The position numbers and the translations under genes were made by a program. Below are positions 2,438 through 32,692 of a DNA stretch of 32,692 bases, piece by piece (position 1 is the stretch's first letter; every line of letters starts with the position of its first letter). The notes under the pieces are model-generated. The model saw nothing but the letters and a program-made list of their open reading frames with translations. It was not told where the DNA came from and ran no database searches. Origin of the DNA: a virus; the IMG/VR virus record IMGVR_UViG_3300030098_004030, positions 1-32,692 of that record; one strand, written 5' to 3'.

Positions 2438-2644
2438 ATGTCTAAATCAAAATGTTACCCACTACAACTCGACCGTCGAGTCTATGCAGCATTTAAAGCA
2501 ATCGCTCAGATAAAAGGAATCACCATGAAAGAAGCAATACGGGATGCACTCGGTCTGTACATCAGCGATAACATCTACCAGCTCGACATCATCCAAGTTA
2601 ATAAAAATCTACTCGCTGAAGAAAAGAAAACTGCCAGAGATTAA
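2438..2644 (+). CDS. Ribbon-helix-helix (CopG/Arc-type) DNA-binding protein candidate
   Basis: 68 aa. MSKSKCYPLQLDRRVYAAFKAIAQIKGITMKEAIRDALGLYI has the RHH pattern: a short beta strand with alternating residues (YPLQL), helix A (DRRVYAAFKAIAQIKG), a turn, and helix B (TMKEAIRDALGLYI). Such proteins bind DNA as dimers, often at tandem direct or inverted repeats. It lies about 1 kb from the ACACAAGAG array, in the transcript probably driven by the promoter inside that array, so it is a natural candidate for autoregulation. Its stop codon lies in the loop of a 10-bp stem. Assigned by pattern, without a search. Confidence 0.65.
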   Translation: MSKSKCYPLQLDRRVYAAFKAIAQIKGITMKEAIRDALGLYISDNIYQLDIIQVNKNLLAEEKKTARD

Positions 2645-2659: not shown

Positions 2660-2702
2660 CCACACTATTTAAACACAACACTTGACAAAGAAGAATAAAA
2701 CA

Positions 2703-4958
2703 ATGACAAGCTTTAACAATATACCACACAAATATATTACTGACCAGAAAATAAAATACACTGAATGGAAATACCCAGCCAGTCTACACCCTGCACCACG
2801 CGGACAATGGGTTAGGTCACAACTCAGTAATGCTAGACACGATACAATGACACCCAGTATTGCTTTTCAAGACGTGCTGATAACCACAGATGCTAGGACA
2901 CAACAACGTGGACAAAAAATATACGAGCTGGGCAAAGAACAATTTCCCCTGTTCGCTCCTGTCACATGGATAAATACTAATGGTCGTCGTATCAAAACCA
3001 ATGTCGAGCAGGTCAATGCACTGGTCTGGGATATAGACGGCATGTTAGCTGAGGATATGCAGGCACTGTTACATGGCATAAAGGACTTATGCCACGTGGC
3101 CTATACCTCTTACTCACACCTATCTGAGTACAAGGGATACCGTCACGCGTGTCGTATCATCGTCGCTATCTCCAGACCTATACTGGCCAGAGAATATCCT
3201 ATCGTCTGGCGAGCTATGAAACGATATATACCTACAGACATACAGACGAAGGACTGTTCCCGTCTATGGTTCTATCCCTCGTCTCTCGATACTCGTAAAC
3301 ACAATGCGTACATTGTATCATCGGATGGTAGCATGTTAGACATAGATGCAATCGTACAGGACAAAGCAAACATGGTACAAATATCGAGCAATCAAATATC
3401 GACAGAGCATAAACAGCAGCAGTTCTTTCCACCACAGCACACCACACCTGCACCCAATAACACTGATCGATATAGATTGATACGCGCTCCACAACACCTA
3501 CCCATCCGCGCTGCTGATGGTGAGATCAAACCTTTCTCATGGTTCATATCACACTGGGAAGACCTACCCAAGCACACCACAGGTAACTATCAATGCTACG
3601 CACGTGGTAGTGGTAGTGTGGGTAGTGCATTTATATCTCGTACCGTGGACATATGGGGTGTAGCTCGCTACAGACTGACAGAGTGTAACTCAAACAAAAC
3701 ACACCTTGATTGTATCAATACTGATGGTGGACTAGAGATTAAATATGGTGACAAAAATGTTAGCTGGTCATACCTCAAATCCGCAGATAACCTCGCTCTT
3801 ATGCTACCTCTTTTTGAGCAGAAATATAACCTCAAGATATGGCAATGCGAGATCAGACAGCAGATCTACATAGGTGATCAGCCATTGACTGACGCGCTCG
3901 AGGTAGACATCATGAATAAACTTAGGGTCGCCTATTTCCCCAGCCAGACATTACAGTTAGCCATGATAAAACAGGCGATACAAATACATGCACACACCAA
4001 TACCCGTAACCCTATTGTCGAGTACCTCAATGGGCTAGTATGGGATGGTAAACCACGCATCAACAATATGCTGATCAAGTACATGAAAGCACCTGACACA
4101 CTGCTATCACGTACCTATTCTCGTAAATGGATGATCAGTGCAGTAGCGCGAGCACTCACACCCGGGTGTGAGGTACACACCATGCTCGTTTTAAAAGCCG
4201 GACAAGGACACGGGAAAGGAACATTTTTTAAAACACTATCTGGTCGCTGCCAATATACCAACTACCCATGGTACAACAGCAGCAAAATAAACATCGGTGA
4301 GAAAGATGGGCGCTCAATCCTACGCACAGCATGGATACACGAGATGGCTGAGCTGGCATCACTAGCCAAAAAAGATGCGAACCTCATAAAAAACTTTCTC
4401 GACGAGGCATTTGATACGTATCGACGCGTGTACACGACACACGAAGTAAAGCTACCTCGCTGTTGTGTATTCGCTGGATCAGCCAATGACGATGATCTAC
4501 AAATATTTAAGGACAAAACCGGATCACGTCGGTACTGGTATCTCGTACTAGACTATATCAAAAACACTATGGCATTTGATGCGGGCGAGCTACTGTACAA
4601 TAGAGACCAGCTATGGGCTGAAGCGGTACACGCGTACAAGAAGAATGGTGAGCAGTGGCATCTAACTAAAGCTGAGGAAGATATGAGAGAGGCATACAAC
4701 AATAGCTACACTATTGAAGGTGTTCATGAGACACTCGTACAGGACTATATTGCAGCGCTCGATGAGGAAGATGTAAAGTTTTTGAATATGCCAGACATGA
4801 TAGCAGAGATCTACGGTAACAATCCCTCTCTCAAACCTGTGAGCAATCCCAACTACTACCCATCACTGCTGCTGAGATATGGTTGTCAGCTCGTCAATGG
4901 TGGTAAGAGATGCCGTCGCCTAAAAAAAAATAAAAGTGGGTGGTGGTCTATCCCCTAG
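2703..4958 (+). CDS. Primase (PrimPol-like) fused to VapE-type superfamily 3-like helicase
   Basis: 751 aa from ATG 2703; a TTG at 2682 would add seven residues but lacks an SD, while ATG 2703 has the same AAGAAGAATAAA-type leader as other early genes. The N-terminal part resembles an archaeo-eukaryotic primase: ALVWDID (about 106-112, metal-binding Asp pair), TSYSHL (135-140), RHACRIIVAISRPI (147-160) and TKDCSRLWFYP (182-192). The C-terminal part is a virulence-associated-E type ATPase: Walker A AGQGHGKGT (499-507), WIHEMAEL (about 544-551), FAGSAN (590-595) and an arginine-finger type TGSRRYW (606-612). It probably unwinds and primes phage DNA at the origin for a host polymerase, as no phage polymerase is present. 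It is the last plus-strand gene before a terminator. Confidence 0.85.
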   Translation: MTSFNNIPHKYITDQKIKYTEWKYPASLHPAPRGQWVRSQLSNARHDTMTPSIAFQDVLITTDARTQQRGQKIYELGKEQFPLFAPVTWINTNGRRIKTNVEQVNALVWDIDGMLAEDMQALLHGIKDLCHVAYTSYSHLSEYKGYRHACRIIVAISRPILAREYPIVWRAMKRYIPTDIQTKDCSRLWFYPSSLDTRKHNAYIVSSDGSMLDIDAIVQDKANMVQISSNQISTEHKQQQFFPPQHTTPAPNNTDRYRLIRAPQHLPIRAADGEIKPFSWFISHWEDLPKHTTGNYQCYARGSGSVGSAFISRTVDIWGVARYRLTECNSNKTHLDCINTDGGLEIKYGDKNVSWSYLKSADNLALMLPLFEQKYNLKIWQCEIRQQIYIGDQPLTDALEVDIMNKLRVAYFPSQTLQLAMIKQAIQIHAHTNTRNPIVEYLNGLVWDGKPRINNMLIKYMKAPDTLLSRTYSRKWMISAVARALTPGCEVHTMLVLKAGQGHGKGTFFKTLSGRCQYTNYPWYNSSKINIGEKDGRSILRTAWIHEMAELASLAKKDANLIKNFLDEAFDTYRRVYTTHEVKLPRCCVFAGSANDDDLQIFKDKTGSRRYWYLVLDYIKNTMAFDAGELLYNRDQLWAEAVHAYKKNGEQWHLTKAEEDMREAYNNSYTIEGVHETLVQDYIAALDEEDVKFLNMPDMIAEIYGNNPSLKPVSNPNYYPSLLLRYGCQLVNGGKRCRRLKKNKSGWWSIP

Positions 4959-5646: not shown

Positions 5647-5771
5647 TTCTTCTTCTTCTTCTTCTTTGCGTAAATCGCAGCCTGTTGTTTCTTAGCCTTC
5701 GCTTTACTCATTGCCTTTTTTGTTTTGGTGTTCTTTACTTTGTATCCACCTTTGACTTTTTTGATAGGCAT
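5643..5771 (-). CDS. Small Lys-rich conserved phage protein, 42 aa
   Basis: MPIKKVKGGYKVKNTKTKKA at the start and QQAAIYAKKKKKKK at the end. It strongly resembles a widespread family of tiny phage proteins beginning MPxKKVKGGY and ending with an AIYAS-type motif; function unknown. ATG 5771 has a strong SD (GAGGGG) six bases upstream. Its 5' half overlaps the end of the XRE-like gene by 68 bp in another frame, and its stop overlaps the lysin start (ATGA). The final seven lysine codons (AAG repeats) probably also serve as the lysin SD. Confidence 0.75.
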   Translation of the reverse strand: MPIKKVKGGYKVKNTKTKKAMSKAKAKKQQAAIYAKKKKKKK

Positions 5772-6006
5772 CTTCGGTCCCCTCGACAAGATATAAAAAT
5801 TCTAACCAGAGCTGTTCATACACTAAACCCTTTTCGTTTGCCAGTGCGCGGAGAAACCACACCATCGATATAATGTTAGGTTGATTCCGACCTTTGCACC
5901 AACAGTACACAGAGTTCGGATGCAACCCAGCAACATTCGATAAACGTTTTATTTCACCATACGATGTATGACGTAACAATAATTGTTTAAGCGGTATTTT
6001 TGGCAT
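5704..6006 (-). CDS. XRE/Cro-type helix-turn-helix regulator candidate
   Basis: 100 aa. IKRLSNVAGLHPNSVYCWCKGRNQPNIISMVWFLRAL (about residues 19-55) matches the XRE helix-turn-helix layout: recognition helix around NSVYCWCKG, followed by the conserved R-x-x-P-x-x-x-x-x-x-x-x-x-L pattern. The C-terminal third is polar and Lys/Gln-rich. The ATG at 6006 directly abuts the TAA of the upstream gene. It is unusual for a repressor-like protein to lie in the lysis end of the late operon; it could act as a late-to-early switch on the operator-rich region at 30.4-31.3 kb, which is inference. Not long enough for a CI-type repressor with a self-cleavage domain. Confidence 0.7.
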   Translation of the reverse strand: MPKIPLKQLLLRHTSYGEIKRLSNVAGLHPNSVYCWCKGRNQPNIISMVWFLRALANEKGLVYEQLWLEFLYLVEGTEDAYQKSQRWIQSKEHQNKKGNE

Positions 6007-30418: not shown

Positions 30419-30549
30419 CTTATGTCCCTATAATGATACTACATTAGTAATACATAATATACATGTACACAAATGACTATGCCAAATACTATCACAACAT
30501 ACCCTATAAAGGCTAAATCTAAAAAAGTCATCCGTATAAATTTGTGGCT

Positions 30550-30667
30550 CCCCAAAAATGAACACTGTTCGGTTTTGGGGGGGGTACTGTACGTTTGTTC
30601 AGGGCAGAATACAAGAGAGAGGACATGTATTGACCTCCCCCAAAGACCGAACAGTGTTCATTTTGGG
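30550..30667. repeat. Pair of inverted, individually palindromic 31-34 bp elements
   Basis: The element at 30550-30580 is nearly palindromic: CCCCAAAA and TTTTGGGG arms flank a perfect GAACACTGTTC centre (30560-30570). The element at 30634-30667 is its near-identical inverted copy, with the centre GAACAGTGTTC at 30649-30659. About 50 bases separate them, so the pair can fold as one long hairpin or two separate ones. Confidence 0.85.
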
Positions 30668-31245
30668 ATGCTTGTTCAGTACTGCACATCCGTACAGTAC
30701 CCGAACACCGTTCACTTACTGAATACATGTTCAGCACTGAACAAGTGTGCAGTATCCGAACACCGTTAGCTCTACCGAACACCGTTCACTGAACACTGTA
30801 AACTTGAATGAACACCGTTCAGCGTAGCGAACCACTGAACACCTGTACAGTATACACCAAGTAAACACTGTTCACTTGCCAATAAAAGACCTGACATAAT
30901 ATGGCCCGTTTTAGCTGGCGCCACTGAACACCTATACAGTGCGAATATAGAGCTATCATAATCCTGTTTTGAGCTACGACCGGATAGTAAGAGCGCACAA
31001 CGAGTGTAGTTATTGGATGTTCACGTGTTAGCACCTATCGCATCCTCTACGATATAAACGACGTTACATACAAATTATCCTTTCAACGTCGTTCAGAATC
31101 AAAAGTTTTATGAAAACTTGACACTTGAACACTTGAACAATCAGTATTCTAGACTATCGCATAAATGTTTTAACTGTTCAAGACTGTTCAAGTTCTGTGT
31201 AAAATACCATGAACACTTGAACACACGATGTTTATGGTGTGAACA
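30560..31245. repeat. Cluster of GAACA/TGTTC half-sites and GAACACCGTTC boxes
   Basis: Counted by eye: GAACA at about 15 positions (30560, 30649, 30703, 30739, 30758, 30777, 30791, 30810, 30837, 30926, 31127, 31135, 31211, 31219, 31241) and TGTTC at about nine. GAACACCGTTC occurs exactly at 30703, 30777 and 30810, with close variants at 30758, 30791, 30837, 30863 and 30926. Around 31118-31225 the half-sites become direct (GAACACTTGAAC; TGTTCAAGACTGTTCAAG). Confidence 0.85.
31057..31093. repeat. 9-bp inverted repeat
   Basis: AACGACGTT (31057-31065) and AACGTCGTT (31085-31093) are perfect inverted complements separated by 19 bases. It lies in the quieter middle part of the control region between the two half-site clusters. 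Confidence 0.7.
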
Positions 31246-31289
31246 CTATCGCCATATCAAACTATTTTGATAATAAATAAACTTTTATA

Positions 31290-31319
31290 TTGACAACATA
31301 ATTATCACTACGGTAAGTA
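31290..31319 (+). promoter_or_regulatory. Early promoter candidate
   Basis: Consensus TTGACA at 31290-31295 followed, 18 bases on, by TAAGTA (31314-31319), a weak -10. Upstream DNA is AT-rich (TTGATAATAAATAAACTTTTATA). Predicted start is near 31325, exactly where the CA-rich leader begins, as at the 1400 promoter. It would drive the genes from 31360 onward. Confidence 0.55.
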
Positions 31320-31324
31320 TGATT

Positions 31325-31353
31325 ACACACAACACAACAACATTGCAAAGGAG
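31325..31353 (+). promoter_or_regulatory. Early leader: CA-rich stretch plus strong SD
   Basis: ACACACAACACAACAAC (31325-31341) followed by AAAGGAG (31347-31353), seven bases before ATG 31360. No hairpin here, which suggests the CA-rich part is the constant element. Confidence 0.6.
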
Positions 31354-31359
31354 TTACAA

Positions 31360-31827: not shown

Positions 31828-32652
31828 ATGATTGGAATACTCGTACAAAGCACAACCCGAAACAAAAAAACTGGTAACATACCTACTGTTATCGTAGGAC
31901 AAAACCAAAAGGATATCGTCTCATCCTGTCAACAATCAGGATGCGTTCTACTCAGTGAACAGCTCGGTGGTAGTGGCATGTATAAAGACCTCGGTTTAAA
32001 ACCATGTTATGCCCATAAGTCTCACGTCTCGTGGGGTACAAAATCAATCTTTCGAGCTATTGAAAGAGGCACAAAAACCCTTGAGGATTACAGTATAAAA
32101 GAAGGCTTCCGCATGGCATCACGTCACGCGAAATATTTCCGATTATCATCCATTGGAGATTGTTCAGTACTTGACCCGTCCATTATTGATGAGCTACTAT
32201 CCGAAGCAAAACGATACCAGCTTACACCACTGGGTTACACTGCTAACCCAGAGGCTACCCATTTACAAAATATCGTTTTATTGTCGTGTCCTACCATGGC
32301 ACGCGCGGATGCTGCTATCAAAGATGGATGGCGAGTTGCTGTCCAAATCACCAAACCCTATAGACATGGTGATAGCAAAACATTTACAACTCCGGATGGT
32401 CATCTCGGGGTTATCTGTCCCGAGCAAACTCAAGCTATAAAATACAAGGCTATAGACGAGAGGAATAAAGCAGTGCTCTTACTATTACTCGCCATAGCAT
32501 CCAATGAAGGCTTTATATTTACGGTATCCTATTCTGGCCAGAATAAACCCAGCGCGCGCAAAAAAATCACGTGTAACACGTGCGGACTCTGCGCACGAGG
32601 CAACACCCACAAAACAAAATATAAAGCTATTGGCTTTATACCTCACAACTAA
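31828..32652 (+). CDS. DUF7227-like Cys-rich protein with an insertion, 274 aa
   Basis: Start ATG 31828 with GAGGAA upstream; an ATG at 31771 lies inside the previous gene and is rejected. Cysteines: C34-x4-C39, C60 in CYAH, C154 in SCP, C197 in ICPEQ, and C249-x2-C252-x2-C255 in TCNTCGLCA near the end. This layout matches phage DUF7227-type proteins and suggests a metal or Fe-S site; function unknown. Between ICPEQTQ and the final Cys cluster this copy carries about 47 residues, including hydrophobic AVLLLLLAIA, where the copy at base 1 has about 12. Early gene, followed by the leader-hairpin module. Confidence 0.75.
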   Translation: MIGILVQSTTRNKKTGNIPTVIVGQNQKDIVSSCQQSGCVLLSEQLGGSGMYKDLGLKPCYAHKSHVSWGTKSIFRAIERGTKTLEDYSIKEGFRMASRHAKYFRLSSIGDCSVLDPSIIDELLSEAKRYQLTPLGYTANPEATHLQNIVLLSCPTMARADAAIKDGWRVAVQITKPYRHGDSKTFTTPDGHLGVICPEQTQAIKYKAIDERNKAVLLLLLAIASNEGFIFTVSYSGQNKPSARKKITCNTCGLCARGNTHKTKYKAIGFIPHN

Positions 32653-32684
32653 CACACAACACAACCCGCCCCCTTTAAAGGGGG
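32651..32684 (+). promoter_or_regulatory. Leader module cut by the window edge
   Basis: AACACACAACACAAC (32651-32665) and the palindrome CCCCCTTTAAAGGGGG (32669-32684) are identical to 211-244. The sequence after the palindrome (CTTCACTA) differs from that after 244 (TATCAACATAAGG) and looks more like the one after 920 (CTTTGCTATAGGAG). Confidence 0.6.
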
Positions 32685-32692
32685 CTTCACTA

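Follow-up and report, generated by a model that had tools for sequence, protein, structure and literature searches.

The non-coding region between the divergent late and early gene arms of this phage carries a dense field of GAACA/TGTTC half-sites. Our preferred reading, to which we assign a probability of about 0.65, is that this field is composite: its direct repeats (block B) would form a P4/SaPI-type origin for a VapE-type primase-helicase, the dyads of a first class (type I) would be extra sites for this initiator, and those of a second class (type II) would be operators of the late promoter. The window, i.e., the whole stretch of DNA that was analyzed, comprises the 32,692 bases of one virus record.

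Genome Map and Gene Arms

According to the ORF list and protein searches, the late arm lies on the minus strand and runs from rusA (30418) via terS and terL to the portal gene. The early arm lies on the plus strand; it extends from 31360 to the right end and resumes at the left end, continuing as far as VapE (2682-4958). Because the window ends overlap imperfectly, a circular map is probable. At positions 1-250 and 32345-32692, the end of a single early gene is present in variant copies, which suggests a circular map closed by strain variants. A cos site at the GC-rich block was considered and rejected: the contig ends of two close relatives (L008 and L009) differ by 38 bases, and therefore there is no fixed end. 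GC skew along the window gave no origin signal and kept one sign around most of the genome. An Rfam search for an RNA element returned no match near its gathering score. A search of bacterial genomes with the capsid protein, aimed at the host, gave no match. The regions and genes on which the analysis centers are as follows (strand is given where one applies).

30419-31359: non-coding region separating the divergent late (rusA, minus) and early (plus) arms, from the ORF list; 941 bases with 24 GAACA sites
2682-4958, plus strand: VapE-like primase-helicase, the proposed initiator; C-terminal residues ~650-758 predicted to be winged-helix-like
2438-2644, plus strand: RHH-like small protein with a weak DUF6290 match, candidate regulator
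5704-6006, minus strand: HTH-like protein (HTH by eye, no Pfam match), candidate regulator, kept in all relatives compared

Half-Site Density and Arrangement

A sequence-only reading of this DNA had claimed about two dozen half-sites where one or two would be expected by chance. This was confirmed: there are 24 within 30560-31245 (686 bases), against 1.37 per 686 bases in the remainder of the window. The enrichment check against shuffled sequence, which that reading had proposed, gave the same picture, since the intergenic region (941 bases), after each of 1000 dinucleotide shuffles, contained 2.99 sites on average and never more than 9. The most clustered 6-mer of the window is TGAACA (19 in 700 bases). 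The order that had been described is also correct, with 11-bp palindromes (30560-30873) followed by direct repeats toward the early promoter (31127-31223). Three further features were found beyond that description, namely a class of 18-bp dyads, a 31-bp imperfect inverted repeat and a repeat-free stretch (30946-31110) that divides block A from block B.

Block A (30552-30945, GC 0.46) is on the late side and holds inverted dyads of both types. Type I is the 11-bp palindrome GAACA-N-TGTTC, present in five exact copies and one with a single mismatch. Type II is a separate 18-bp dyad, ACTGWACANNTGTWCAGT, of which all six copies in the window are located within 30586-30940.

30525-30557, minus strand: conserved box AAAAGTCATCC..ATATTTTTTGGGG..CCCC, candidate late promoter region
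30552-30667: 31-bp imperfect inverted repeat; its arms, 30552-30582 and 30637-30667, each contain a type I dyad
30560-30570: type I dyad GAACACTGTTC
30586-30603: type II dyad ACTGTACGTTTGTTCAGG
30649-30659: type I dyad GAACAGTGTTC
30681-30698: type II dyad ACTGCACATCCGTACAGT
30703-30713: type I dyad GAACACCGTTC
30718-30735: type II dyad ACTGAATACATGTTCAGC
30736-30753: type II dyad ACTGAACAAGTGTGCAGT
30777-30787: type I dyad GAACACCGTTC
30810-30820: type I dyad GAACACCGTTC
30834-30851: type II dyad ACTGAACACCTGTACAGT
30863-30873: type I dyad AAACACTGTTC, one mismatch
30923-30940: type II dyad ACTGAACACCTATACAGT

By the fit of its dyads, block A is best read as an operator block. The conserved box beside it, about 110 bases from rusA and common to the window and 11 relatives in an alignment, may be the late promoter.

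In block B, on the early side, TGAACA comes as a forward pair, a reverse pair, a second forward pair and one additional site, with a direct period of 8-10 bp. It is AT-rich (GC 0.34), as is the adjoining stretch 31251-31359 (GC 0.28; window 0.417).

31118-31245: block B, AT-rich direct-repeat array (iterons), proposed origin core
31127-31139, plus strand: forward iteron pair GAACACTTGAACA, 8-bp period (sites 31127/31135)
31175-31189, minus strand: reverse iteron pair TGTTCAAGACTGTTC, 10-bp period (sites 31175/31185)
31211-31223, plus strand: forward iteron pair GAACACTTGAACA, 8-bp period (sites 31211/31219)
31241-31245: additional single iteron site
31290-31295, plus strand: TTGACA, located where AT content is highest and presumed from the sequence to belong to the first early promoter; a similar TTGACA occurs in relatives

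Three hallmarks of an iteron origin are thus found: short direct and inverted repeats clustered far above chance, an AT-rich melting region by or between iteron sets, and an SF3-type initiator helicase encoded on the same element. A fourth, which applies to SaPI/PICI only, is an origin that immediately follows the initiator gene on its 3' side. In this phage, the 55-base gap 3' of that gene is devoid of repeats, and around the circle the field is found about 4 kb upstream of the gene.

Conservation and Class Switch among Relatives

Relatives were taken from IMG/VR (TerL 70-93% identical, initiator 44-50%), and the two-block layout is conserved among them. A search for the same boxes in relatives, also proposed at the outset, had a divided outcome: in one set, the GAACA field recurs in the corresponding position (G001, G009, G010, L041/L042 and L043/L021), but a second clade (G003, G004, L013, L018 and L020) has none, its early-side direct repeats reading GTAACA and GACAACA. 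Every phage that has a complete GAACA field also has type I dyads, and the GTAACA class lacks them altogether, while type II dyads are found across both classes and are retained in most members of the GTAACA clade. Type II is therefore a separate class, and the presence of type I tracks the word used on the early side. Because type I shares its core with block B, and is found only where block B uses GAACA, these dyads are probably further sites for the initiator that reads block B. The type II dyads probably serve as operators for a conserved regulator other than the initiator. Two proteins that are retained in the relatives compared are candidates for it, one HTH-like (5704-6006) and one RHH-like (2438-2644).

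The C-terminal domain of the initiator also differs by clade (YYP-D-LL, RLD and KACRR, plus an insertion in the second clade). The switch of the repeat word is not independent evidence because it follows phylogeny. In L010, P4-like iterons are present and type I dyads are absent; the initiator gene is off its contig.

Additional dyads in block A are lineage-specific: TGACA-N3-TGTCA in L043 (50-160), CTAC-N6-GTAG in L063 (G010) and a TTGCA-rich set in L041 (540-680). Block A therefore turns over quickly. At about 1440-1600 of L020, and at the same place in G003, G004, L013 and L018, there is a conserved stretch between the blocks with hairpin potential (GTCCC...GGGAC, GATATAGC...GCTATATC); it could encode a small RNA of the GTAACA clade. 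In G001 (L007, 3240-4640), two extra genes lie between the field and rusA, and one has a PP-loop-like SGGYDST motif as in QueC. A possible role of these genes is 7-deazaguanine DNA modification, judging from the motif. When viral contigs were searched for the pattern ACTTGAACACTTGAACA, the matches were mostly unrelated, this phage family excepted.

The half-sites had been likened to LexA-type boxes with a different spacing. This holds for type I, which is GAAC-N3-GTTC, but some relatives do show the N4 spacing (exact matches number five in G010, two in L043 and two in L021). The Gram-positive LexA (Cheo) box, GAAC-N4-GTTC, is similar in its GAAC/GTTC dyads and in the N4 spacing of some type II copies in relatives. 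It differs from type I in spacing and from type II in the ACT/AGT flanks, and the field of the window has no exact GAAC-N4-GTTC. An E. coli-type LexA box was rejected, as the type II arms usually read CTGA/TCAG rather than CTGT/ACAG. Nothing was found that links the sites of the field to a LexA protein.

The Proposed Initiator and Comparison with P4 and SaPI/PICI Origins

The proposed initiator has a VapE-like domain (E=4e-59) and matches PHROG helicase/primase families. A model of its C-terminal domain is winged-helix-like (pLDDT 79); many of its fold matches are winged-helix domains, all of them weak (E above 0.2). The full-length model (pLDDT 57) was too poor for use. A profile comparison with P4 alpha detected no sequence similarity, C-terminus included, and a PDB sequence search with the C-terminal profile gave nothing useful.

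In the P4 record, the annotated ori type 1 repeat reads TGTTCACC, with direct pairs 9-11 bp apart in both orientations. The early-side array of L010 shares 25 identical nucleotides with the P4 origin (AGGTGAACAGAGGTGAACAGTAAAA). The sequence GGTGAACAGNGGTGAACAG is present in at least 120 viral stretches, and a P4 alpha homolog was found in 115 of 120 among the matches listed. One more of the listed stretches, L169, codes for a VapE initiator and has a TGTTCACC field within about 0.6 kb on its 3' side.

Repeats 3' of vapE were then sought in 18 loci (17 annotated phages and satellites, plus L169). Ten of the 18 have a significant iteron array there, each with its own word (top 6-mers GTCAAC, GGGACA, CGTCCC, CTGTCC, GTAACA, ATGGTA, ACTACA, CGGTAG and CTGCAA, and ACAGAT for the TGTTCACC field of L169); at the remaining eight, the site that was inspected showed no significant array. 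Where VapE phages have an array, it mostly follows the initiator gene immediately on the 3' side. The word of LfeSau, GTAACA, is the block B word of the G003-type relatives. This type of iteron is associated with such initiators.

Block B resembles P4 ori/crr and its alpha protein in the TGTTCA core, the direct pairs about 9-11 bp apart, the presence of both orientations, the AT-rich setting and an SF3-type helicase as initiator. It differs in that alpha has a Zn-ribbon/Toprim/D5 architecture with a Pox_D5-type C-terminus, whereas the initiator is VapE-like here; no separate crr was identified in this phage, and the repeats in the window do not generally carry the GGTG flank seen in P4. The P4 ori, in contrast to those of SaPI/PICI, does not immediately follow the initiator gene. 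With SaPI/PICI, the phage shares short element-specific iterons, nearby AT-rich DNA and an SF3-type initiator with its C-terminus as the presumptive reader; the C-terminal domain of SaPI Rep and Cch2 recognizes iterons (PMC7581432). PICI origins consist of an AT-rich region flanked by two iteron sets (PMC6092414). Unlike the SaPI/PICI origin, which is directly 3' of the initiator gene, the field occupies the space that separates divergent arms and is intermingled with dyads that resemble operators.

Weighing of the Readings

We counted in favor of the origin reading that fields stay in the same place even though the initiators are only 44-50% identical, and that core and spacing are those of the P4 repeat. 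Counted against it were the position away from the 3' side of the initiator gene, the lack of C-terminal similarity to P4 alpha, the weak fold matches, the 8 of 18 loci without an array, the situation in L010, the missing GC-skew signal and a competing array at 1337-1519. Block B is most likely a replication origin, with the C-terminal domain of the initiator as its probable reader.

The whole field might instead be a transcriptional operator array, at which a cooperative repressor or activator (HTH-like, RHH or of an unrecognized kind) switches between the early and late promoters, the origin being elsewhere. The field does separate divergent arms and reaches both presumed promoters, its dyads are typical of dimeric regulators, type II is limited to this region and conserved in both clades, and small DNA-binding-type proteins are kept in all relatives. 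We nevertheless consider this unlikely: the direct-repeat block corresponds to P4 origin iterons, down to the identical stretch in one relative, a direct spacing of 8 to 11 bp is unusual for a single rigid dimer, and comparable arrays accompany VapE/alpha initiators in unrelated phages. The earlier proposal of a multi-site regulatory or origin region is supported, and the comparison divides it into a direct-repeat block (origin) and a dyad block (operators).

The competing array is significant in its own right (CACAAG occurs 12 times, shuffle maximum 4).

1337-1519: CACAAGAG direct-repeat array upstream of the e6-RHH-VapE genes, over a promoter-like TTGACA-17-TATTAT

It is possibly the operator of the RHH protein or, alternatively, an iteron site. 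If it were the origin of replication, the GAACA field would be regulatory only. The array is closer to the initiator gene than the field is, and a similar CTTGTC array exists in G002. However, it overlies a promoter-like sequence, is unrelated to the P4 word and was absent in scans of G001, G009, G010, L041 and L043, while the intergenic array stays in place in all relatives. An origin at this site thus appears decidedly improbable.

Partition sites bound by RHH proteins also show arrays of short direct and inverted repeats, and an RHH-like gene is present. The field had been called partition-like; as a partition site, it would be centromere-like. This idea found no support: the proteins searched included no ParA/ParB-like one, no partition system came to light, and the gene set is that of a virion-building phage without signs of plasmid maintenance. 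We regard it as very remote.

Proposed Mechanism and Implications

Under the composite reading, the C-terminal domain of the VapE-type primase-helicase, predicted to be winged-helix-like, would bind the block B repeats as iterons. The SF3 helicase would assemble there and the AT-rich DNA would be melted, upon which the N-terminal primase-like part of the initiator would prime synthesis, as for P4 alpha and SaPI Rep. A different, conserved regulator would act through the type II dyads on the adjacent late promoter. It is tempting to speculate that the initiator alone recognizes the early-side iterons as well as the type I dyads at the late promoter, so that replication is coupled to the early-late switch and the origin has moved away from the initiator gene; we consider this possible but doubtful.

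The P4/SaPI iteron origin is a known kind, of which this would be a new case, combined with an operator block. An uncultured phage group thereby gains a specific, testable origin and a named probable initiator. Its relatives form a natural series, in which GAACA changes to GTAACA alongside a change in the initiator C-terminus, and which is useful for deriving rules of DNA choice. For metagenomic phages in general, a cheap way to find origins would be to search for clustered words in the vicinity of genes for VapE-type initiators or of divergent promoters.
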